From: Xestospongia muta
Lineage: Eukaryota; Porifera; Demospongiae; Haplosclerida; Petrosiidae
DNA: 64,000 nt
Assembly (NCBI GenBank): GCA_963693285.1
Contig: OY848920.1
Span: 3,237,135-3,301,134 of the forward strand
Direction: 5' to 3'
The position numbers were made by a program, and so were the translations under genes. Under the pieces are notes generated by a model, which saw only the letters and a program-made list of their open reading frames with translations, was not told the DNA's origin and searched no databases. Shown here in pieces: positions 14,154 through 64,000 of this stretch. Within the stretch, counting starts at the first letter, position 1. Each line of letters begins with the position of its first letter.

Positions 14154-14809
14154 AAAATCATTACCTACATAAAAAAGGTCAGTACTCTTCATTAACTACA
14201 ACTAGATTATTCACTACTGCTATAAGTACATACAGTCTTTCAGTAGCATAATTTAACAGGTTAGGTTTATTCCCTGGATTGACTAAAAGCTGAAAATAGT
14301 GATATTTATTAATCACTTATGATAGAATTTTGTATATATTATGTTTCATTGATTGCTACTTTGTTTCTTTCTTTATCCTATATCATTCAATATGATGTAA
14401 ACCTACTTTAAAATATAAAAGCCTTAGAGTTTGAACAGCTAGTTCTTCTTAACCAACAAAATGTCAAGTCAATACAGATCTCATGACAAAATATTAATTG
14501 TTCTGTTATTGTTGATGTGTCAATAACTCTGTCAACTCATGATTTAAAAATATTGTTTAGAAGTTACATGATATTTTATGGAGGGACTACATTCCTTGGG
14601 CAATATGATTTATAAATTCTATTATTGGTAGTTTAGTACATTATATACATAAACCTCTGCACCAATTATGTCACAGTAAACTGTAGAGCAATTGATCAAC
14701 ATAAGAACTGATGATATAAACAGCACATGGAAGCATTAGCTATACATGGCCCTTAGTATATATAAACAATTGCTAACATATACTATGTAAATAGGTAGTG
14801 TTAACTAAC

Positions 14810-15105
14810 CATTGTCCTCAGATAATCTTTATAATTCTTTGCTACACGATTCTGTCTGATAGCTCTTAATGCAGTTAACAAATTTCTTCTAGTTGCTTCT
14901 CTTGCTTTCTCCATAATCCATAACTGATACATACTGGTACAATCATGACATTCAGCTAGATCCACACCACTCAGTTCTAGTTCCATACCCAACTGATTCC
15001 ACTCTGCTGTTCTAGCATGTGTAGTTACTTCTAGAATTGGAGGTTGTTGATCCAAGAGATAATCTGGTAAAGTAGATACATGTACAGCTCCTTCAACTAC
15101 ATTAC
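14810..15105 (-). CDS. Gene D: C-terminal death-domain exon
   Basis: A 296-nt exon, phase 1 acceptor (CGTATTAG) and phase 0 donor (ATG|GTTAGT). It begins NVVEGAVHVSTLPDYLLDQQ and continues HARTAEWNQLGMELELSGVD. It ends TRRNLLTALRAIRQNRVAKN before DYLRTM. The W.QLG.EL.L ... MYQLW ... A.RR.LL.ALR pattern is a death domain. The same type of exon closes genes B, C and E, so it is normally the C-terminal module. If the donor is not used, translation would stop two codons later (VS*). The true last exon was not identified. Confidence 0.75.
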
Positions 15106-17223: not shown

Positions 17224-17916
17224 ACAGACTGTTATAGCAAATTGTATACAAATAACCAAATAATAGGCACTGCTACCATATGCTTGATAAACCAACATGT
17301 AATAGAATGGTAAGACATAAATGTTACTATTTATATTCTTTTCATATTTAGAAAAACTAAGGTTATTAGAATTTCAATTATGACAAAATCATCAACCTAA
17401 CTTTGGCATTCCATTGTTGTTGCAAAGATACTTTGAGTCATACTGATGCCTTTCATGGATCTTAGAGGTTGTGTCCTTTTAATACATTATTGTAGGCAGT
17501 TAACTTGTTGTTTTTTAACCTGTGCTATTATGCTATTATGTAAGCATGATATAATATCAATCCCTACTGTCTTGTTTGTTTCTTTGTATAGAGTGACATG
17601 TATCCATGTTTTAACAAATAAAAGACTCATCAACCAACATCTAATAGGATGGTATGACATAAACATCACCATCTATACACTGTTCACATTGAGAAAGACT
17701 ATAGTTTAGTAGTTCATCATAGTTTGGTGGGCTATTATAGTTTATACAATTGTCAATTGTTATTGACCAGAGTAGTGTTAGATTATTGTTTTGTAAAATT
17801 CTAATTCTAGAATAAATGTTTGATCTGTAATAAGGACAATTAATCTAACTCCATATAAGTGACTAACAGATATGCATAAAAAGGACACAGGCTACTCATT
17901 TAAATATTAAAGTTAC

Positions 17917-18142
17917 CTGTTTTAGGTCCAGGATTGAGTTCAACATCTCCTGATAAGATAAGGAGAAGTGAGAGAAAGACTCCTAAAGAGAAGGTAACAT
18001 CTTTAATCTTCCTGATAATAGTCACTCCATCTATCCTATTACTGCTCTCAGTGTTTGGATTCTCTTTAGAATGAGTACTACATGATATCTGATGACATGG
18101 CCATAATCCAATACTCACTCTCCATTGAGTGACATCAATCAT
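17917..18142 (-). CDS. Gene D: start exon with hydrophobic segment and 2A-like motif
   Basis: Exon of 75 codons plus one base, acceptor TTTTTTCATTATAG, ATG two bases inside it (18140-18142), donor ACAG|GTAACT (phase 1). Residues 50-63 form a hydrophobic run (FSLGVFLSLLLIL) preceded by basic residues (IIRKIK), like a signal peptide or anchor. It is followed at once by SGDVELNPGPKT. GDVELNPGP (residues 65-73) fits the 2A consensus D(V/I)ExNPGP, at which ribosomes skip the Gly-Pro bond. In known N-terminal 2A signals of sea urchin immune-type proteins, uncleaved product is secreted and skipped product stays cytosolic. The same is inferred here: skipping would release a 72-residue leader and a Pro-started double death-domain protein. 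Confidence 0.8.
17924..17950 (-). other. 2A-like ribosome-skipping motif (GDVELNPGP)
   Basis: Codons GGA GAT GTT GAA CTC AAT CCT GGA CCT on the minus strand. Every consensus position of D(V/I)ExNPGP is present, and the upstream hydrophobic Leu/Ile-rich context also matches active 2A peptides. The skip site is between Gly (17927-17929) and Pro (17924-17926). Confidence 0.85.
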
Positions 18143-21571: not shown

Positions 21572-22526
21572 TCAACGTAAGATAGTGTCTACTGATGTTT
21601 TAACTTCATAGGAGACTGGACCAGTAACTTGAATTACTTCTGCTGGTACCCAGGTAGGAGTTCCATGATAATTACGAGCAAAAACTTTATTACCAACTTT
21701 AAACATACGAAGGGTTTTCTTTGATTCAGTGTTAGAGTGATGTTTACTGGTTACTTTGCGTGATAAACCTGGGTGAATGAGGTCCAATGTAGTCCTTAAT
21801 TTTCTTCCCATGAGTAGTTCTGCTGGAGACATTTCTGTTGCACAATGAGGTGTAATATGATAGCGAGCTAAAAATTGTGTTTAACGATCTTGAATATTAC
21901 CTTCTAATTTCTTTAATGCTGACTTAAATGTTTGAACTGCATGTTCTGCTATTCCATTTGAGCTTGGGTGATATGGTGATGTTCGAATGTGATGGATACC
22001 GCATTGTTTCATGAACAATTGAAATTCATGGCTTGTAAGGCTGTTCCATTATCAGGTACTAGCTGTTCTGGGAGTCTATGAGTATCAAAAATCTGTTGTA
22101 ATTTCTGAATGGTGACTTCTGAGGACAATGAATTATAACAATATGTACTTCGAGCCACTTCGAGTGTACATCTATCAGAATGAAGAAAAAGTTACCTAAA
22201 AATGGTCCAGCATGGTCGATGTGAACACAACTCCATGGTTTTTGTGGAAATTCCCAGAAATGGAGTGGTGATTTTGCTGGGTCTGAACGATTTAATTGAC
22301 AATTATTACAATCTTGAACTGTTCTTTTGATATCTGCATCAATTCCTGGCCACCAAATGTAAGAACAAGCGAGCATCTTCATTTTTGTGATTCCTGGGTG
22401 AGTCTGGTGTAACTGGTTGAGGATAATTTGATGTCCAGCTGCTGGTATAATGACACGCGAACCTAATAAGAGACAACCATCTAGTAAGTACACTGAGTTC
22501 AGAATTCCGATTGTGAAATGGAGCAA
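21572..22526 (-). pseudogene. Retrotransposon integrase region (broken)
   Basis: The upper part carries the integrase HHCC zinc motif: HQTHPG, then WWPGIDADIKRTVQDCNNCQ. Next come the catalytic-core starts HIDHAGPF and FILIDVHSKWLEV. The reading frame is lost between about 21833 and 22100. A further frame at 21572-21832 (MSPAELLMGRKLRTTLDLIH ... VGNKVFARNY) is the integrase C-terminal part. No intact integrase is possible. Confidence 0.8.
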
Positions 22527-22581
22527 GGTCTAGTGTAGGTTCAGTGATGTTCCATGCATTCTGTACTAGTTTTCTAACTCG

Positions 22582-23229
22582 TTATAAGAGTGGGTCTTTA
22601 TCTGTCCATACCTTTATTTGAGATGATGTTACAATAGACTGATCTAAGTGGTTTAGTAGATGACATAGGTCACCTGGCAGGGGAACTTGTGAATTGGTGA
22701 AATTACATTGTAGTGGTAGTCTGCTGAGGGCATCTGCATTCGACATACTAGTTCCTGGTTTATGTTTGATGGTATACTGGTAGGCAGCAAGTGTTAGTGC
22801 CCAGCGTTGGATTCTGGCTGAAGCCATAGCAGGGATTTGCTTAGATTTACTAAATAATTGTTCCAATGGTTTGTGGTCAGAATACAGTGTGAAATGAGTA
22901 CCATATAAATACTGATGAAACCGTTTTACAGAGAAGATAATTGCCAATGCTTCTTTTTCTAACTGTGAGTAGTTACGTTCTGCTGGTGTCAAGGTACGAG
23001 AAGTGAATGCTATTGGTTTTTCTGAATTATCTGACATTCTTTGAGCTAACACTCCTCCTATTCCATAAGGGGATGCATCACAATATAGTAATAAAGTTTT
23101 CCTGCTGCCAAAATGTACTAGCAGAGAAGAAGATTGGAAAAGTTGTTTAACTTTGTTGAAGGCAGTTTGTTGAGACTCTGTCCATGTCCACTTAGTACCT
23201 TTATGTAGTAGTAAATGTAGTGGAGACAA
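22582..23229 (-). pseudogene. Retrotransposon RNase H region
   Basis: An open frame of 215 codons with LLYCDASPYGIGGVLAQ (catalytic Asp), KEALAIIFSVKRFHQYLYG, YSDHKPLEQLF and NADALSRL, all RNase H hallmarks of Ty3/gypsy polyproteins. It overlaps the RT frame by about 29 bp in a different phase, so a frameshift separates RT from RNase H. Confidence 0.85.
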
Positions 23230-24199
23230 GTACTAAATAACTTTGGCAAAACTTGTGATAATAATTTACGAGTCCTACAAAGGCTCTTAACTCTGTTACG
23301 TTTGTAGGAGCAGGTGCTTGTTTGATAGCTTGTACTTTTGATGGTGATGGGTGCAGTCCTTTGTTATCAATAATGTGTCCTAAGTATTTTACTGAGGTCG
23401 TAGCAAAAATACATTTGGAGTGCTTCAATGTAATTCCTGCTGATGAAAGTCGTGACAACACTAGTTCAAGGTTACGTAGATGATCTGCTTCCATTTTGCC
23501 TGAGATTAGAATGTCATCAATATATACACAAACATTAGGAAGATCACACAGAAGACTTTCCATAAGTCGCTGAAAAATACTAGGTGCTGTAGAAATACCA
23601 AATGGCAAATGTTCATATTGGAATAGTCCCTTGTGAGTATTAATAGTGGTGAGCTTCTTTGAATCTGAATGAAGAGGCAACTGTTGATACGCTTGACTGA
23701 GATCTAATTTAGTGAACAATGTTCCACCTTGTAGAACAGCAAATATATCTTCTACGCAAGGTAGTGGGTAAGTATCAGATGTAAGGGCTTGGTTAACAGT
23801 AACTTTATAATCGCCACAGAGATGCAAGTGACCATCTCGTTTCAAAATGGGGACTATGGGAGCAGCCCAATCTGCATGTTGCACTGTGGAGATGATGCCC
23901 AACTTTTGTAAATGCTTGAGTTCTTTTTCAATTTTGTCTTTAAGACGATATGGCACTGGTCTGGCTCTGAAAAATTTCAGTGTGGCTTGAGGATGTACAT
24001 GAAGTTTAGCTGTGGTGCCCTGAAGTAGTCCCAATGTATCTGAGAACAAGGAAGAATATTTATTGAGGAGAGATGATAATGAAGATGAGTTCTGAAGAGC
24101 ATGAATGGAGTTCCAGTCTATTTTGATCTTTTCCAGCCAATTCCTACCAAAGAGGCTTGGACCGTGATCTTTCACAACTATTAACGGATGTGTATGCAC
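23201..24199 (-). pseudogene. Retrotransposon reverse transcriptase region
   Basis: A 332-codon frame. Seen in order: PVPYRLKDKIEKELKHL, GIISTVQHADWAAPIVPI, FTKLDLSQAYQQLPL, LPFGISTAPSIFQRLM, and the active site VYIDDILISG (YIDD). KCIFATTSVKYLGHIID and LRAFVGLVNYYHKF follow. It then runs into a wrong frame (SYLVLVS) before RNase H. Confidence 0.9.
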
Positions 24200-24455
24200 C
24201 TGTGACTGATAACAAAATTGACATTGTAAGTACCCATAATACTGAGACTCTCACCTGTATAAGTAGTAAGTGCAATATCAGTAGGTTGTAAGTTGTCCAT
24301 TGGTGAGCAATAGAACGAAAGGTTTCTTGGCTTATTATTGACAATGAAGCTCCAGTGTCCAGTTCCATAGACACATCAACACTATTTAGATTAACTGTAA
24401 TAACTAAGGGTTTGACTTTCCCAGGTAAAGTAAACAGGGTGTAGGTGTTGTGCAC
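24144..24455 (-). pseudogene. Retrotransposon protease region
   Basis: Contains VDVSMELDTGASLSIISQET, the retropepsin active-site motif DTGAS. The frame overlaps RT in a different phase, again indicating a frameshift. Confidence 0.75.
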
Positions 24456-24549
24456 TTTATTAGAAGGTGGAGGTCGGTCTGAGGTTGAGAGAGGGGATTG
24501 ATCTGAGGTCAGGGAGTGTACAAGTTTTTGTTGTGGCTTGCAGGCACCA

Positions 24550-25260
24550 GCGGGTTGTTTAGAGCACTACGAGAGGGTTGTCTTGAGATTGACCTAATTT
24601 TACTTTTGCAAGCCCTGACAATGCGCCCTATTTTACCGCAAGCTCTGCATTCCGCAGTTTTGAAACTACAAATATTTGCAAGGTGACAACGGTAACAAGT
24701 GTAACGCTTACTCTACAAATGTTGTACCGATGATGAAGAAACTGGAACGAGTTTTTGAAGGTTTGGAGCATCTTTAGCAGCTGCTTCAACGGACTGAGCG
24801 ATTTCGAACGCCTTTGTAAACGTAAGAGTTGACTCTTGAAACAAACGGTTTTGTATGCGAAGGTCATTAACTCCACATACAAGTCGGTCCCTAACCATTT
24901 CATTATAGTTTTCTCCAAATTTACAATGCTCACCTCGACACTTGAGCTCTGCTACGTATGTAGCTACTGATTCACTTTCCTTTCTTGCCCATGTATCGAA
25001 CTTAAAACGTTACATTATGACAGACGGCGCCGGATTGAAGTGCTTACCAAGAGCCTCAACTAGCTCGGAATATGATTTGTCTGCTGGAGTTCCTGGCTGT
25101 AAAAGACTTTTTAGTAACTGGAACGCTGAAGGACCACAGACAGTGAGTAAAATTGCTTTCTTCTTATTTTCGTCTTGGACATCATTAGCACAAAAATAAT
25201 ATTCCAGTCACACTGAGTAGGACGACCACAATTCGTGACTAGAGTTGAAGTATGAAAATT
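24550..25260 (-). pseudogene. Retrotransposon gag region (broken)
   Basis: Pieces in more than one frame. MVRDRLVCGVNDLRIQNRLF with LTFTKAFEIAQSVEAA is typical of Ty3 gag just before the zinc knuckles. Near 24600-24715 two knuckle-like stretches read CYRCHLANIC and CRACGKIGRIVRAC. The first lacks spacing residues and the second has Val where His is expected. The gag frame is interrupted by stops. Confidence 0.6.
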
Positions 25261-31660: not shown

Positions 31661-32341
31661 CAAATATATTGAAAAAAGTATACATGTACAATTAGTTAAC
31701 AACTGGTTTTAACAATAAGTCTGTTATTAACAGAGCATTTACGAGGATCTCTCTTCTAGGATATTGAGGTATGTATCTGTGGAATTAATAGATAACAATT
31801 ATATACAGTAACTACAGAATATATCTAACTACCAATATAACACCTATACATATTATTTAGTCTAACAAGAACTATTGTACATATATTTGAATTGCCTTTT
31901 CCAAAAAGACAATCATTAAATGAAAAAATATTGTCCACAAATCCAGGTATTGTCAATTGTTCAATAGAACAAACTTTACATGAACATATCCACATACCAT
32001 GTACATACTAGTATTAAGGTAACTAGTATACTTACTATACTATACTTGTTGATACATAATAACATCACTTATATAGATTTAGCACTCTCACTTACAAAAT
32101 GAGGAATAAACGTTTGTGGTCACAAGTTGTTTACATAGTTAATAATGTTCTAAAGCCAATTTTATATAAACCATATGAAATCAAGAGCCAGTATACTAAC
32201 ATTATATCTAAAAACAACCAAGTTATGATTAGTGTCAAAGTTTAATATAGATCAATGTCAGTTAATAATATTGGGCTATTCTTAACTAAAGGGTCTACTC
32301 TATATACCTGTATATATTGATATATGGACAATGTAACTTAC

Positions 32342-32637
32342 CATTGTCTTCAGATAATCTTTGTATTTACTAGCTACATCATTTAGTCCAATAGTTGTTA
32401 AAGCATCTAATAAACTTCTCCTTGTTGCATTTTGAGCCTTTTCCTCAAGCCACAACTGATACATACTAGTATATTTATGACATTTAGCTAGATTGACCCT
32501 GTCCAGTTGTAGTATCACACCTAACTGATTATACTCTGACGTTCTGGCATGTGTAGTTAATTCTACAATTGGAGGTTGTTGATCCAAGAGATGATCTGGT
32601 AAAGTAGATACATGTACAGCTCCTTTAACTACATCAT
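32342..32637 (-). CDS. Gene B: C-terminal death-domain exon
   Basis: A 296-nt exon, phase 1 acceptor (TTTCATATTAG), phase 0 donor ATG|GTAAGT. It reads DVVKGAVHVSTLPDHLLDQQ, HARTSEYNQLGVILQLDRVN, then TSMYQLWLEEKAQNATRRSL and SKYKDYLKTM. It is a paralogue of 14810-15105, 51463-51758 and 63720-63988. The helix 1 Trp found in the others is Tyr here (EYNQLG). The next acceptor (TTTTGTAAG at about 32095) would give an immediate TGA because the short last exon of genes C and E has an 11-base deletion here. Confidence 0.75.
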
Positions 32638-33289
32638 CTAATATGAAATGGAAAAATATATAATTTAGTATTGATATAACAAAATGAACTATTCTTTGTA
32701 AAACAATAAAACAAGTGTAATTATGTTATTGATATAACACATGTATAGATGATAAGATAAAACAAAAGGTACAACTAATAATGTGGGTGTGTCATCAAAT
32801 CAATTGCAAATGTGATGTTCTTAATTACACATTTGATGATATAATTAATAATGCTAAGAGTTTGTAGATTTAAATTAATGATGTTTAGCAGACTCTAAAT
32901 CTATGGCTGGCTCCAAAACTAAGGAAGGTTGTACATGTGTGATTTATAAAGAGAGCTAGATATGAGGTATAGGACCATTTTCTTTTACAAAACACTCAAA
33001 CTCATGTACATGTATATAACATTATATTATACTATGATATCAGTGTTAGGTGGTCTACAGTTTTAGATAACATGTTATGTAGCTGGTTAAATATTTGTAA
33101 ACACAGATATTAATTGATATGTACAGGATTTCATATATTGTCTGATGATACTTATCAGGTGTCAATGTTAATATGGTCAATTTAGAAATTATATGACAAC
33201 AGTTACATAACAAAAACAACAATCTTAATGAACTTTAGATATATATGTACTTTTGATTACTTTACTTTTTTAGTCTAATTAATACTCAC

Positions 33290-39151: not shown

Positions 39152-39463
39152 GTTATCTATAACATCTTTAACTAAACAGATAAGAATTACTATCAAGTCA
39201 ATATGTTGGTTCCATGTGTGTATATGTTATGAGACATATTGTAAGATAGACACATCCTAAAAACACAATAAAGTTCATTCTAAATACCAGTACTACATAC
39301 TACATGTATGTTGTGATGTATAGAAGTAGTTAATAAAAAACTATATCAAAGTCTTTGACAACAGAATGATAACATTTTGTAATTCAAAATGTTTGTACTA
39401 TACAGTTTATTGACAGTGACAGTATTAATAAAACAACATCATTACTTAATAATAATAACTTAC

Positions 39464-39757
39464 TTATTTGAAGATGTTGACGTATATGATCAGCTATCTT
39501 CTTTTTGTTAATAACAGGACTTTCTGCAGCAGTAATCATTGTTTCCCAAGTATCAGGGGATGATTTTGTATCACTCCAGATGTTCATTACTTTCTCGAGT
39601 TCGGTTTCATCATTGTCCTCACTTTGTTTTATCTCATCCAAAACATTGCGACGTAGTTCTAATGATAATCCAATATCATACCATTTGTCACTGATAGCAA
39701 TTAATGCAATAAATAGTTCATATTTATTAGGAGTCTCCTTTAATATACTGGTAATAC
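39464..39757 (-). CDS. Gene B: second N-terminal death-domain exon
   Basis: 98 codons, phase 1-1, acceptor TTATCTCAG, donor A|GTAAGT. It reads ITSILKETPNKYELFIALIA, ISDKWYDIGLSLELRRNVLD, then WSDTKSSPDTWETMITAAES, ending IADHIRQHLQI. This is the classic death-domain pattern KW.DIGLSL ... W......TWET.I.A..SPV. It is the same length as 42942-43235 and 16142-16435. Confidence 0.8.
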
Positions 39758-41784
39758 CTGAGATAACAACAAAAACAATTATTATAACAAACTGTCATAT
39801 TATAAATTAATTAATGTCTTAAACATTATCATTTTAAATATATGTGGTATTGATTAAGTGTTGACAAATGAAAACTTCAATTATCAATAAATGGACATGG
39901 AATTTAATACAGAAACTTGGAATATAAAATTGGAATTATATTTATACAATCACACTGATCTAACAAATTTACTACTTATAATACAATGATTTGTGGTTGG
40001 GCTTTAAATAGAATATGTGGTAAAAGTTCAAAACTAATACTGGATATTAAGCACTATTACTAACATTATCTTATAATTAACAGACAGTGTAGGAGTAGGT
40101 CCCCAGTATTTCTATATCAATATAGCTTGTTAATTACATGGAATTATTAATTACTATTTAAGTCATTATAATGTGAACATTAAGTGACTCCAATAAATGA
40201 CTGATTTGTAGTAGTTTCTACTTTGATAAGAAAAGTGGATAATTTTGTTAAGGTACATGTATGTGTAAATTTTAAGCTCACTTTAAAAATTATTTTGGAA
40301 GTTTGTCATAATAATATAGAAAGGATATATATTCTTATTACTACATGTATATAGTATTTAAAGTCATTTTTATCATTGTAACTTAAAAAGCAAAGTATAA
40401 TACTAACACTCTTTTTCATAGTAAACAGAGCTAATGTATCATAGTTTGTGTCATTATAATAACAGAAAAGTATCCATGTTTTACTATTTTCTATAGTATA
40501 TAGAGACAATGATATAAACAGTAACTACATCACAGAGAAAAAGTAGAGTTCTAAAACTTAGCCTCATATCCAGACATTCATTCAAGGGAAGGATGGCTTG
40601 TAATCTATCAAGCTAGACCCTCCCACTTTGCACAAGAAAGGTCTAATAAAGGTCACAATTGATTAATTTCAACTAAACAATCAGATTACACTACTCATAT
40701 TCTAGCTAGTGTGGGTGGTAGGAAGTAGAATGTAAATGTTGTTCACTCTCTATTATTGAAGTGAAGAAACCAATTTTATTCTTTTCAAACTAAGACTGTT
40801 TTATGACTCTATAAGAAAGTAACTATAATATTTTAAAGTATGCAAATCTACAAACATAGCATAAATGTATTGTAAGGGAAAATAGTATGCTCCAGGAGAG
40901 GATGTGGCTTCTTCATTTCCACTTATCTTAATTAATAAAAATTCTGATGAGACCTTTACTTTATATTTCTAACACACCAGTTAAGAGGAGGATATAGCTG
41001 GATAGACTAGATGAACTGGTAACTACTACTTGTACATGTATCAATTAATTGGAATCAATGATAAAGTCATTCATGAGCTAATCCTTTAACAATGAAGTAG
41101 TCATAATTAAAGTAAAATAATAAATCAATGATATATATTCATTTCCTTTATATTATAGCTGACTATGGAAAGAGTTGGACTCTGTCTTCTAAAGTAGATA
41201 ACATCAAGTTTGCTATGTAATATACAATAAAATGATAAAATTTTTGATTTCATTGAATCTACTGTATGGTCAATGAAGATGTGTTTTCAGTCTAACTTTA
41301 ACTACAACAGTAACTGTGAGTTAAACAGATAAGGATTACTATCAAGTCAATGTGTTGGTATGGTATGTTCTATGTGTGTACATGTTACACGTTCTGAGAT
41401 CATTTTGTGACTGAAGGCTGGTTCACATAACAACACTAAGCCTTGCATCACATTGTGTCATGTTGTGTAGTGTGTACATATGTCAATTTATGAACACAGT
41501 GTGTGCATGACCTACAAATGTGACGTGTCGTAACACAAGGATAAAATCAAGTTTCAAGCAATGCGTTCATCTGATCAAATTTCAATAACCACATGTTTTG
41601 AGTTTTGACAGACGAGAAACTTATCGAGACTGTTCGTTGTTTCCCTTGCTTGTGGAAAGTATCTAGCAAAAGCTACAAGGTTGCAAGAGCAAGAGAAAAC
41701 ACATGGAAGGAAGTGGCAAGCTAGGTAACTGAATAAACAACAAACAGAAATTATACATAGCTGTTGAGTAAATATAGGATACAC
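39758..41784. other. Intron/unassigned in gene B
   Basis: No convincing exon. A block near 41280-41360 repeats sequence at about 37840-37910. Confidence 0.4.
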
Positions 41785-41809: not shown

Positions 41810-42941
41810 TTTGTACTAGTAATAGAGTTTATAATGATGAGGATGGAGTTTTGTTCACATGTATCCTCTTTTTTATATGAACAGCATTGATGCTACACTA
41901 CACAATGTGACACCAAGAGTGAAAAGTGACCCATATACAAGTGTAGTTTGTTGAACCCATCTTTAGACACATCCAAACACATTACATGTTCATTCCTAAT
42001 ATAAGTACTACATACTATATGTACGTTAAAACTCATTGACACAATACTGTAATTATTCTAAAATTTTGTGCCTCTAATTTCAATAATAACTAATTGTTTG
42101 TAAACTTTCTATAATTTTTCTCTCTAATATTCCTTTGTAAAATTAAAGCTCCATGTATTTATAATCTTGTCATTTACTTCCTTATTTGGCAAGGTATGCA
42201 ATGGAGAAGATGGTGATTTGGACATTAAAGAAAGCAAAGAGGACAGCATTTTACTGTAATGATTATCATTGTTATTCATTTTAATACCATAATAGTAGAT
42301 CAGTTTGGAATATTCTAATGACACATGTTCTACTATTCTTCTATTTATTGTCATCACTACTCTGTATCTATCATGACTATTCATTTCTTCTATTTCTCTG
42401 AAACTTGTCTCCTACCTCAGGACTCCATTCAACTTTGTAAATGTGATAGCCTCTGTACCATATTGGACAAATTGGCTCCTAGAACTTAGTCTGTTGTCTC
42501 TTTATTTTTAATTAGTCTGTCCTTGTTACTGTACATTGTTACTTTGGTACAGTGTATTGACAGTGACATTAGGTGTGGTTTATATTTAATTTAATTCAAT
42601 AAAGCTTACATCTATAAACTGACTTAATTCCATTCAAAAAGGATTGTTAATGACCTTCATTATATAGAAAGGTCAGAACAAGACATGACTACCTACAAAC
42701 TGATCACAATTATTCATAACATGTACAAAACATTCCTGTGTTCAAATTATAACTGATACAATCAACATCAAACCACTTTGAAGTGAATTCAGACTAATTT
42801 GATTTTTCAATCACATTCAACTGATGTACATTGTGTGTGAACAATGTTGATTATAACTGAATTGAATACATTTTACAGTAGTAGTCTGAACACCACTATT
42901 AATAACCTCATTACTTAATAATAATGACTTATTACTCTTAC

Positions 42942-43235
42942 CAGTACTAAGATATTGACGTATTAGATCAGCTGTCTCCTTATCATTAACAATAGGACTC
43001 TCGATGGCACCAATCACTGTTTCCCAGTTAATAGGGGATGATTGACTAGTTAGAAAGTTCTCAATGACTGCAAAGAGTTTAAAATCATTGCCCCTCTGAT
43101 TGTGTTTCAAATGATCCAAAACATTGCGACGTACTTGTAATGATAATCCAATATCATACCATTTGTCACTGATATCATCTAATAGATAGGATAGTTCATG
43201 ATTTGTAGGAGTCTCCTTTAATATACTGGTGATAT
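42942..43235 (-). CDS. Gene B: first N-terminal death-domain exon
   Basis: 98 codons, phase 1-1, acceptor TGTTCTTATCTCAG, donor ACTG|GTAAGA. It reads DITSILKETPTNHELSYLLD, then ISDKWYDIGLSLQVRRNVLD and SQSSPINWETVIGAIESPIV, ending ADLIRQYLSTG. It joins in frame to the MKMAA start exon at 44370-44385. Sequence shared with 39464-39757 indicates an exon duplication. Confidence 0.8.
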
Positions 43236-43669
43236 CTGAGATAAGAACAAAATAATTATTATAATAAACTGTACATTATAAATTAATTAATGTGTTAAAA
43301 ATATCATTATAAATGTATGTGGTATTGATTAAGTGTTGACAAATGAAAACTTCAATTATCAATAAATAGACATGGAATATAATACACAAACTTGGAATAT
43401 AAAATTGTAATTATATTTATACAATTAACTAGGACATCTACATGTACTACTATTCTTCTACTGTTAATAAACAAATACCATACTCTGTCCATGTTGAGAA
43501 CAGCTCTTCGTTAAAAAAGGTGTTTTATGGATTGAATGTAAGGTGAGGTATTTCCTCACCTATTATATGCATTTAGTACTGAAGTACATTTTAATGTTAC
43601 TCATTATTTGGTCACATGGATGTCATGTGAACACACTATGTTTAAAATCATGTTTGTTAAGATGCCAAA

Positions 43670-51244: not shown

Positions 51245-51462
51245 CTACAAAAATAAGGAAATGAGTTTGTAATAGCAATTTGTGATCACAAGTTGTTTAC
51301 ATAGTTAAAACCATTTTCATATAAATTATGGGAATATTACATCTGATAACAAATCAAGTTATGATTAATTTCAAAGTTTAATATAGATCAAAGTTAGTTA
51401 ATAATATTGCTAAGGTTCCACTCTATAGGTACATATATTGATATATGGACAATGTAACTTAC

Positions 51463-51758
51463 TGTTGTTTTTAGATAATCTTCATACTTTATAGCTACAT
51501 TATTCTGTCTAATAGCTCTTAAAGCATCTAATAAATTCCTTCTAGTTGCTTCTCTTGCTTTCTCCATAGTCCATAACTGATACATACTGGTATAGTCATG
51601 ACATCCAGCTAGATTCACACTGTCCAGTCCTAGTTTCACACCTAACTGATTCCATTCCGCTGTTCTAGCATGTGAAATTAATTCTACATGTGTAGGTTGT
51701 TGATCCAAGAGATGATCGGGTAAAGTAGATACATGTACACCTCCTTTAAGTACATTAC
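51463..51758 (-). CDS. Gene C: C-terminal death-domain exon
   Basis: A 296-nt exon, phase 1 acceptor, phase 0 donor ACA|GTAAGT. It reads NVLKGGVHVSTLPDHLLDQQ, HARTAEWNQLGVKLGLDSVN, TSMYQLWTMEKAREATRRNL, LDALRAIRQNNVAIKYEDYL. The death-domain core is intact. By phase it can follow either the Roc-COR exon or the 52740-52883 exon. Confidence 0.75.
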
Positions 51759-52444
51759 CTAATACGAAATGGGAAAATATATAATCTAGTTTTGATCTAA
51801 TAATATAATTTTTGTTTTGTTAAACAAAATAATAAGTGCAATTATGTTATTGGTATTAACACATGTATAAATGACTTCACAGGTCAAAATGTTCAAAAAC
51901 AGCTAATAAATCAAACTACCAAATACAAACACAATATTTATAGTGGGTGGGGTCTATGAACAAGAAAAAAGGGAAAACATTAAAAATATTTATTATAACA
52001 CCAGACAGTCATTAGGAAGTACATGTAACATTTACGAAAAATGTGTATGTATGTCCTTAGACATTGTTTGAGATATTTTAATGTATGGATTTATAAATTT
52101 AATGTCTACTTGATAATACCATTTGTAATTGTTAACATATCAAGATATGATCGCAAAATATTTTTAATGCTCTGCCAGCTTTAGAATGGGATTTGCAAAC
52201 TCGTCCTCCTTAGTGAGGTTAAGGGCTCCTGCTATTTCTTAGTTATGAGTTGACACATGCTATCATTTGCTAAGCAGCCCTAAGGATATGTTAAAGAGCT
52301 TGACAATACTTAAATGTAGTGTTTCAAAAGTTGCATCATTGTTACAATTGAGATTGAAAACAATACATTAAAACCATACATGTTTAAGAATGACTTGGAC
52401 ATAAAAGATTTAGTTGCAATTATGTCTAATATAGTTAAATTCAA

Positions 52445-63511: not shown

Positions 63512-63719
63512 CTACAGATATGAGGAAATGAGTTTGTAATACCAATTTGTGGTCACAAGATGTTTACATAATCTATACTGTTATGAAACCACAAGTATAT
63601 AAGTAAATAATATACATATCAGTATACTTGTGTATAGGCCAACAACAAAGAACTATTTCTTAGTTAGGAAGTACACTCTATGCACATGTATACAGTGATA
63701 TATGTACAATATAACTTAC

Positions 63720-63988
63720 CATGGTTTCTAAATACTCTCTATATTTCCTGGCTATATCGTTTAATCTAATAGCACTTAAAGCAGCTAATAAACTCCTCCT
63801 TGTTGCTTCTTTTGCTTTCTCCTCAATCCATAATTGATACATACTGGTACAGTCCTGACATCCAGCTAGATCCATACTGTTCAGTTCTAATTTCACACCC
63901 AGCTTATTCCACTTTGCAGTTTCAACATATGTAGTTAATTCTAGAATTGTAGGTTGTTGATCCAAGAGTTGATCTAGTGACATATTAC
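63720..63988 (-). CDS. Gene E: C-terminal death-domain exon
   Basis: Phase 1 acceptor (TTATTTGATAG), phase 0 donor ATG|GTAAGT. It reads NMSLDQLLDQQPTILELTTY, VETAKWNKLGVKLELNSMDL, then CTSMYQLWIEEKAKEATRRS and ARKYREYLETM. It has an intact death-domain core and a 27-bp shorter N-terminal part than its paralogues. The rest of gene E is to the right of the window. Confidence 0.75.
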
Positions 63989-64000
63989 CTATCAAATAAA

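Follow-up and report, generated by a model that had tools for sequence, protein, structure and literature searches.

The 64-kb stretch of sponge DNA analysed here (the window) holds a host gene whose first coding exon encodes an N-terminal leader with a 2A motif at its C-terminus. Our reading, to which we give a probability of roughly 70%, is that ribosome skipping at this motif would separate a membrane-type leader and a death-fold or NLR protein that stays in the cytosol, with the unskipped share remaining membrane-tethered. The parts of the gene are as follows.

17917..18142, minus strand: first coding exon, a 75-aa 2A leader, from translation (ATG at 18142-18140, last base G at 17917, phase 1)
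18095..18142, minus strand: N-box MIDVTQWRVSIGLWPC (family form MIDxxQWRxxIGLWxC), from conserved columns and a dN/dS of 0.22
17954..17998, minus strand: hydrophobic segment VTFSLGVFLSLLLIL, from the 17-residue Kyte-Doolittle window mean (2.2 in the window leader)
17924..17950, minus strand: 2A motif GDVELNPGP, with the skip predicted to fall between Gly (last base 17927) and Pro (17926-17924)
17915..17916, minus strand: splice donor GT, 7 bases past the last NPGP codon
16142..16435, minus strand: exon 2, death domain, phase 1 to 1, from a sub-cut-off Pfam score, an AlphaFold2 model and Foldseek
14801..15105, minus strand: exon 3, death domain and stop, Pfam Death at 29.3 bits (cut-off 22.6)

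On the minus strand, 17917-18142 translates as MIDVTQWRVSIGLWPCHQISCSTHSKENPNTESSNRIDGVTIIRKIKDVTFSLGVFLSLLLILSGDVELNPGPKT, followed by G|GTAACT; the leader starts with MIDVTQWRVSIGLW, ends with FLSLLLILSGDVELNPGPKT and stops at the phase-1 donor. Its frame opens past an upstream stop, the ATG at 18142 being the first, and closes soon after the donor, and L031 gives no match to a PHD-type profile; in a non-LTR retrotransposon ORF1, the 2A would be followed by element-encoded protein within one exon. The preliminary description of this DNA had a hydrophobic leader running directly into GDVELNPGP. Start exon and motif are both borne out, but the hydrophobicity is confined to a terminal run that adjoins SGDVELNPGP, after some 48 mostly polar residues with the conserved start at their head. 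The leader ends in the D[VI]ExNPGP that characterizes 2A and 2A-like recoding sequences, and a single frame carries protein on both sides of it, by predicted splicing in the window gene and by database gene models in Amphimedon queenslandica. Against Pfam, the window leader gave one weak match, to FBP_C, at an E of 0.18 and under the cut-off. The 2A DNA pattern matches once in the window and not at all in 100 shuffles of it, in agreement with the earlier statement that the neighbouring gene B starts without the motif. That only one copy exists is likewise true of the window, but not of the source genome (158 Mb, 28 contigs), where the pattern finds 151 sites and its reversed form none.

The predicted joint from 17917 to 16435 keeps phase 1, and adding 16435-16142 and 15105-14801 yields a protein of 274 aa, so the in-frame splice to two death domains that had been proposed holds up, for exon 3 by Pfam (PF00531) and for exon 2 by predicted fold. 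Exon 2 scores 14.3 against Pfam Death, under the cut-off, and its assignment to the six-helix death fold comes from an AlphaFold2 model (pLDDT 92.8) whose best Foldseek matches are the death domains of RAIDD and FADD (TM 0.74 and 0.68, probability 1.00, with an E of only 0.07-0.11). The sole match of this exon in a PDB sequence search, a cytochrome b5 at an E of 0.063, was taken as chance. A further exon may exist near 14305, with ATG|GTTAGT close to the end of exon 3 as its candidate donor. No exon of the window gene came up as NACHT, and none of the NACHT matches listed for the genome falls in the window. The minus strand of the window has further relatives of exons 2 and 3 at 39387-39794, 42820-43275, 32303-32725, 51397-51819 and 63681-63998, and the pattern search finds no second 2A motif in the window beside them. 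Upstream of the leader gene, the minus strand at 21572-25207 carries open frames in which we see a likeness to the pol genes (RT, RNase H and integrase) of LTR retrotransposons of the Ty3/gypsy type.

The leader is one of many. Of the 151 pattern sites, 143 were viewed, and a protein search with the 75-aa leader gave at least 150 scored homologues among 177 candidates in the same genome, mostly full length. Pooled, the searches of this genome yield 173 sites, or 165 leaders once eight retrotransposon-type open frames are set aside. These eight (L002, L008, L012, L013 and L017 by a PHD-type profile; L090, L093 and L102 by sequence) are ORF1-type frames with a leucine run and GDxExNPGP, and presumably have a PHD-finger-like start right after the leucine-rich 2A, as in non-LTR elements; the leader profile matches them from position 45 or later only, so they lack the N-box. 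Scoring of 164 loci with the leader profile, L011 standing outside for want of a match, gave 134 intact loci, 128 with the motif and 6 lacking it, and 30 broken ones, 11 with the motif and 19 lacking it. The 128 comprise 119 distinct proteins and are counted by [DN][VI]ExNPGP, with the exact D[VI]ExNPGP present in 127; L028 and L029 are one exon that is entered twice in the leader counts (the 164, the 128 and the alignment, dN/dS, hydrophobicity, donor and -3 figures).

What stands behind these leaders was scored as linkage, that is, a same-strand leader no more than 8 kb upstream of DD_A, DD_B and CARD-like exons or 12 kb upstream of NACHT, with the wrong strand as control; DD_A is the death-domain type of the window gene, DD_B is one death-domain exon type, called strong at 116 bits or more. 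A leader lies upstream of 67 of the 68 strong DD_B exons (68 of 115 matches; median distance 55 bp; wrong strand 2), 25 of the 27 strong CARD-like exons (27 of at least 150 scored; wrong strand 0), 50 of 98 NACHT matches (wrong strand 3) and 21 of the top 100 DD_A exons (the best 100 of at least 150 scored; wrong strand 1). For weaker DD_B matches the count is 16 of 47, and for the next 50 DD_A matches it is 6, both with none on the wrong strand. Most DD_A exons checked have no leader, consistent with gene B, and with 1595 first-look candidates in the source genome, the best 150 of them scored, DD_A is probably a very large expansion. Counted from the other side, 47 leaders outside the window precede NACHT matches, and 67 of the 165 have no labelled downstream exon among the matches listed, some of them being decayed. 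As judged from such predicted genes, the leader is common to NLR, ankyrin, CARD-like and death-domain genes: L061 combines it with a CARD-like exon (a label without a Pfam match) and a NACHT exon in a predicted 1223 aa, L062 with a death-type exon (Pfam 13.4 bits, sub-cut-off) and an ankyrin exon, and L063 with three death-type exons, of which one passes the Pfam cut-off at 33 bits and the other two are assigned by their homology to exons 2 and 3.

The exon signals are equally regular. A purine occupies position -3 of the ATG in 126 of the 128 intact leaders, the remaining positions to -30 ranging over 8-68%, and in 117 of the 128 the donor GT follows exactly 7 bases after the NPGP codons. Within 67 non-redundant leaders, less than 90% identical in amino acids, three islands are conserved, namely MIDxxQWRxxIGLWxC, the hydrophobic segment and SGD[VI]ExNPGP; the D, E, N, P, G and P of the 2A are invariant in this set, which was picked for the motif. 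Pairwise dN/dS is 0.22 for the N-box, 0.22 for the hydrophobic segment, 0.97 for the stretch between and 0.10 for the 2A, and among pairs at 75-95% nucleotide identity 0.23, 0.25, 0.69 and 0.08, respectively, the 2A values being biased downward because the leaders were selected as motif carriers. These ratios indicate that selection preserves the N-box, the hydrophobic segment and GD[VI]ExNPGP, and that the stretch between is nearly neutral. Genome-wide, the DNA pattern of the N-box has 118 matches and its reversed form none; 97 of the 100 places checked are directly upstream of a listed 2A leader end and the other three are not, so N-box and 2A travel together. An amphipathic helix was considered for the N-box and rejected, its helical moment being no higher than in shuffles (median rank p 0.92).

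All 128 intact leaders contain at least one 17-residue window with a Kyte-Doolittle mean of 1.6 or more. It is preceded by 35-52 residues (median 47.5), in leaders that measure 62-79 aa to the final Pro (median 73), and the median distance from the best hydrophobic window to the skip site is 7 residues. The net charge on the N-side of the segment is mixed, from -4 to +3, and these flanking charges leave the predicted topology of the leader ambiguous. An AlphaFold2 model of the leader has two helices and is weak (pLDDT 67).

The motif is absent from 19 of the 30 broken copies and from 6 of the 134 intact ones (Fisher p 2e-12), 'broken' and 'motif-less' being partly dependent labels in that one frameshift can give both. 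A single duplicated lineage accounts for nine of the 19 broken motif-less copies, and another for four of the six intact motif-less ones; with each lineage counted once, p is 1e-8. On the whole, the 2A motif decays together with its gene. None of the six intact motif-less copies has a labelled downstream exon, and four of them (contig 1, 14.53-14.58 Mb) are followed by a DD_B exon with a stop, as is their motif-bearing sibling L005. Along the same contig (14.53-14.63 Mb), L064-L068 form a cluster in which NPGP has become NPAT, NPIN or NPIT; four of the five are open, L068 has a stop in its leader, and the DD_B exons downstream of the cluster bear stops. On contig 14 (5.10-5.22 Mb), L156, L158, L160, L162, L165, L167, L170, L172 and L174 have a common in-frame stop and a change of the motif D to G, which looks like the repeated duplication of one dead leader along with its neighbours.

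Beyond this genome, a profile built from 51 leaders was scored against 7989 candidate proteins and matches 2045 of them at E <= 0.01; some of these matches probably come from the source sponge's own species, the P0016 leader being equal to that of L094. Among the 115 new profile matches listed, the motif is present in 111 and the N-box in 112, with both in 108, and four database proteins (P0023-P0025 and P0029) join the leader to ankyrin domains. The UniRef-named leader proteins among the matches listed are all from A. queenslandica (n=17), where they comprise 7 NACHT, 6 CARD, 2 Death and 2 uncharacterised proteins. All 17 start with MID[VIL]SQWRASIGLW, and 16 carry D[VI]ExNPGP, the remaining one reading GGVELNPGP. 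To the final Pro these leaders measure 110-143 aa (16 proteins), and each of the seven that were checked has at least two hydrophobic runs; the leader of the A. queenslandica protein P0026 matches the source genome partially, at 38-57% identity, so we take the source genome to belong to a sponge other than A. queenslandica. Leader and domain are joined within single database gene models of A. queenslandica. The Aqu2 annotation of this species, from which these records may come, drew on RNA-Seq, according to the accessible part of its description (PMC4432959).

How, then, would such a leader work? The ribosome would make it and then fail at the Gly-Pro bond of NPG|P, freeing a membrane-type peptide of about 72 residues, after which translation would usually go on to a separate cytosolic two-death-domain protein with Pro as its first residue. 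Upon a failed skip, this protein would keep the leader and be tethered at the membrane or, as in sea urchin, be sent to the exocytic pathway. Given the general length of the ribosome tunnel, and with the skip site a median of 7 residues past the hydrophobic window, the segment would still be within the ribosome at the moment of skipping; the released leader would then carry it at its extreme C-terminus, in the manner of a tail-anchored peptide. We favour skipping because the motif is whole and appears to be under stronger selection than its surroundings. The sequence, the family, the linkage, the selection and the A. queenslandica gene models that join leader and domains are observed, whereas the skipping activity, the membrane insertion, the product ratio and a role of the N-box in the freed peptide are what we infer. 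One mRNA would probably make a small membrane peptide together with a separate immune-type protein. A more speculative extension, for which we would offer slightly less than even odds, is that the leader is itself a conserved membrane micropeptide, made of the N-box and a tail-anchor-like segment, which the 2A frees alongside many sponge immune receptors and adaptors; it would couple the making of receptors to a shared signal or regulator at the membrane, and the skip ratio would set the free versus the tethered receptor.

Dual targeting as in sea urchin NLRs would make the leader an SRP signal, with the skipped protein staying cytosolic and the unskipped one entering the exocytic pathway, where it may be secreted. 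The hydrophobic run does adjoin the 2A in all 128 intact leaders, and sea urchin provides the precedent of about 80% recoding and of Golgi routing once recoding is ablated, as given in the accessible text of that study (PMC4981915). However, position and charges are atypical for an SRP signal: the run comes after 35-52 residues, and the seven A. queenslandica leaders checked have two or more, which argues against a short N-terminal signal, and nothing like the conserved N-box is described in that text for the 26-aa leader of sea urchin. We find dual targeting doubtful. Secretion of the sea urchin kind is possible but fits the anatomy of the leader less well, and anchoring or release of a membrane peptide would suit it at least as well. 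From the interpretation first put forward, the selected N-terminal 2A-type element on a sponge death-domain gene, comparable to sea urchin NLR leaders, survives, whereas 'secreted when unskipped' is a possibility that suits a late hydrophobic segment and mixed charges less well.

That death-fold proteins simply use the leader as a usual kind of membrane anchor or signal, with an inactive or vestigial 2A, strikes us as quite improbable. It would agree with the open-frame leaders L038 and P0144, both of which read GNVELNPGP, with the predicted status of skipping, and with the transmembrane domains already published for sponge NLRs (PMC12909245, as far as accessible). Yet the low dN/dS of the 2A next to a near-neutral middle, and the loss of the motif mostly in broken copies, speak against it. 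A retrotransposon remnant in place of a host exon, for which the eight ORF1-type frames might be cited, is very hard to maintain when the leader profile reaches those frames from position 45 or later only and the leaders are first exons that lie in clusters close to death-fold or NACHT exons, keep a purine at -3 and a fixed donor, and show selection at the codon level.

To our knowledge, host use of 2A recoding is known from sea urchin NLRs only. In sponges, it looks like a large gene-family feature under selection, shared by NLR, ankyrin, CARD-like and death-domain genes. This points either to an ancient origin of ribosome skipping in animal innate immunity or to its convergent appearance there. 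Transmembrane domains in NLRs are treated in a paper on Dysidea avara, the first report being credited to A. queenslandica (PMC12909245, accessible part), which makes membrane-bound NLRs in sponges nothing new in themselves; our guess is that the published domains include the 2A leader. The accessible part of that paper has no mention of 2A-like sequences, skipping or a signal peptide, and the accessible parts of a 2A review and a picornavirus 2A paper mention neither sponge nor Amphimedon. Among the papers listed, none is on 2A in sponge immune genes by its title or abstract opening, and an earlier mention elsewhere is possible. The sponge leaders offer a ready natural series for testing skip efficiency, membrane targeting and the action of the N-box.

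Set against known systems, the leader shares with the 2A-like sequences of non-LTR retrotransposons, reportedly described by Odon in 2013, a C-terminal motif past a leucine run, of which the source genome holds ORF1-type examples. Those examples lack the N-box, and in the three that were read (L002, L008, L017) the frame extends for 328-386 residues, whereas the sponge leader ends at its donor. Viral 2A sits between polyprotein domains, without an N-terminal membrane-type leader. The D[VI]ExNPGP core itself is that of viral 2A of the foot-and-mouth disease virus type (PMC4981915, accessible text). In Strongylocentrotus purpuratus, according to the same text (Roulston 2016), 14 of 87 NLRs have the N-terminal 26-aa leader (SpNLR2A), 12 of the 14 leaders are predicted signal sequences, and changing the Pro abolishes recoding. 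Like SpNLR2A as described there, the sponge leader is N-terminal, has a hydrophobic tract before D[VI]ExNPGP, lies on NLR-type immune genes and is confined to a fraction of them (14 of 87 NLRs in sea urchin, 50 of 98 NACHT matches in sponge). Unlike it, the sponge leader runs to 62-79 aa, or 110-143 in A. queenslandica, instead of about 26, adds the N-box MIDxxQWRxxIGLW, forms an exon of its own in the source genome, as judged by the conserved donor, and occurs in more than 100 copies that also include ankyrin, CARD-like and pure death-domain genes. By its sequence, the sponge leader family thus resembles the sea urchin NLR leader as its nearest known case, departs from it in length, and adds to it the N-box and further gene classes.
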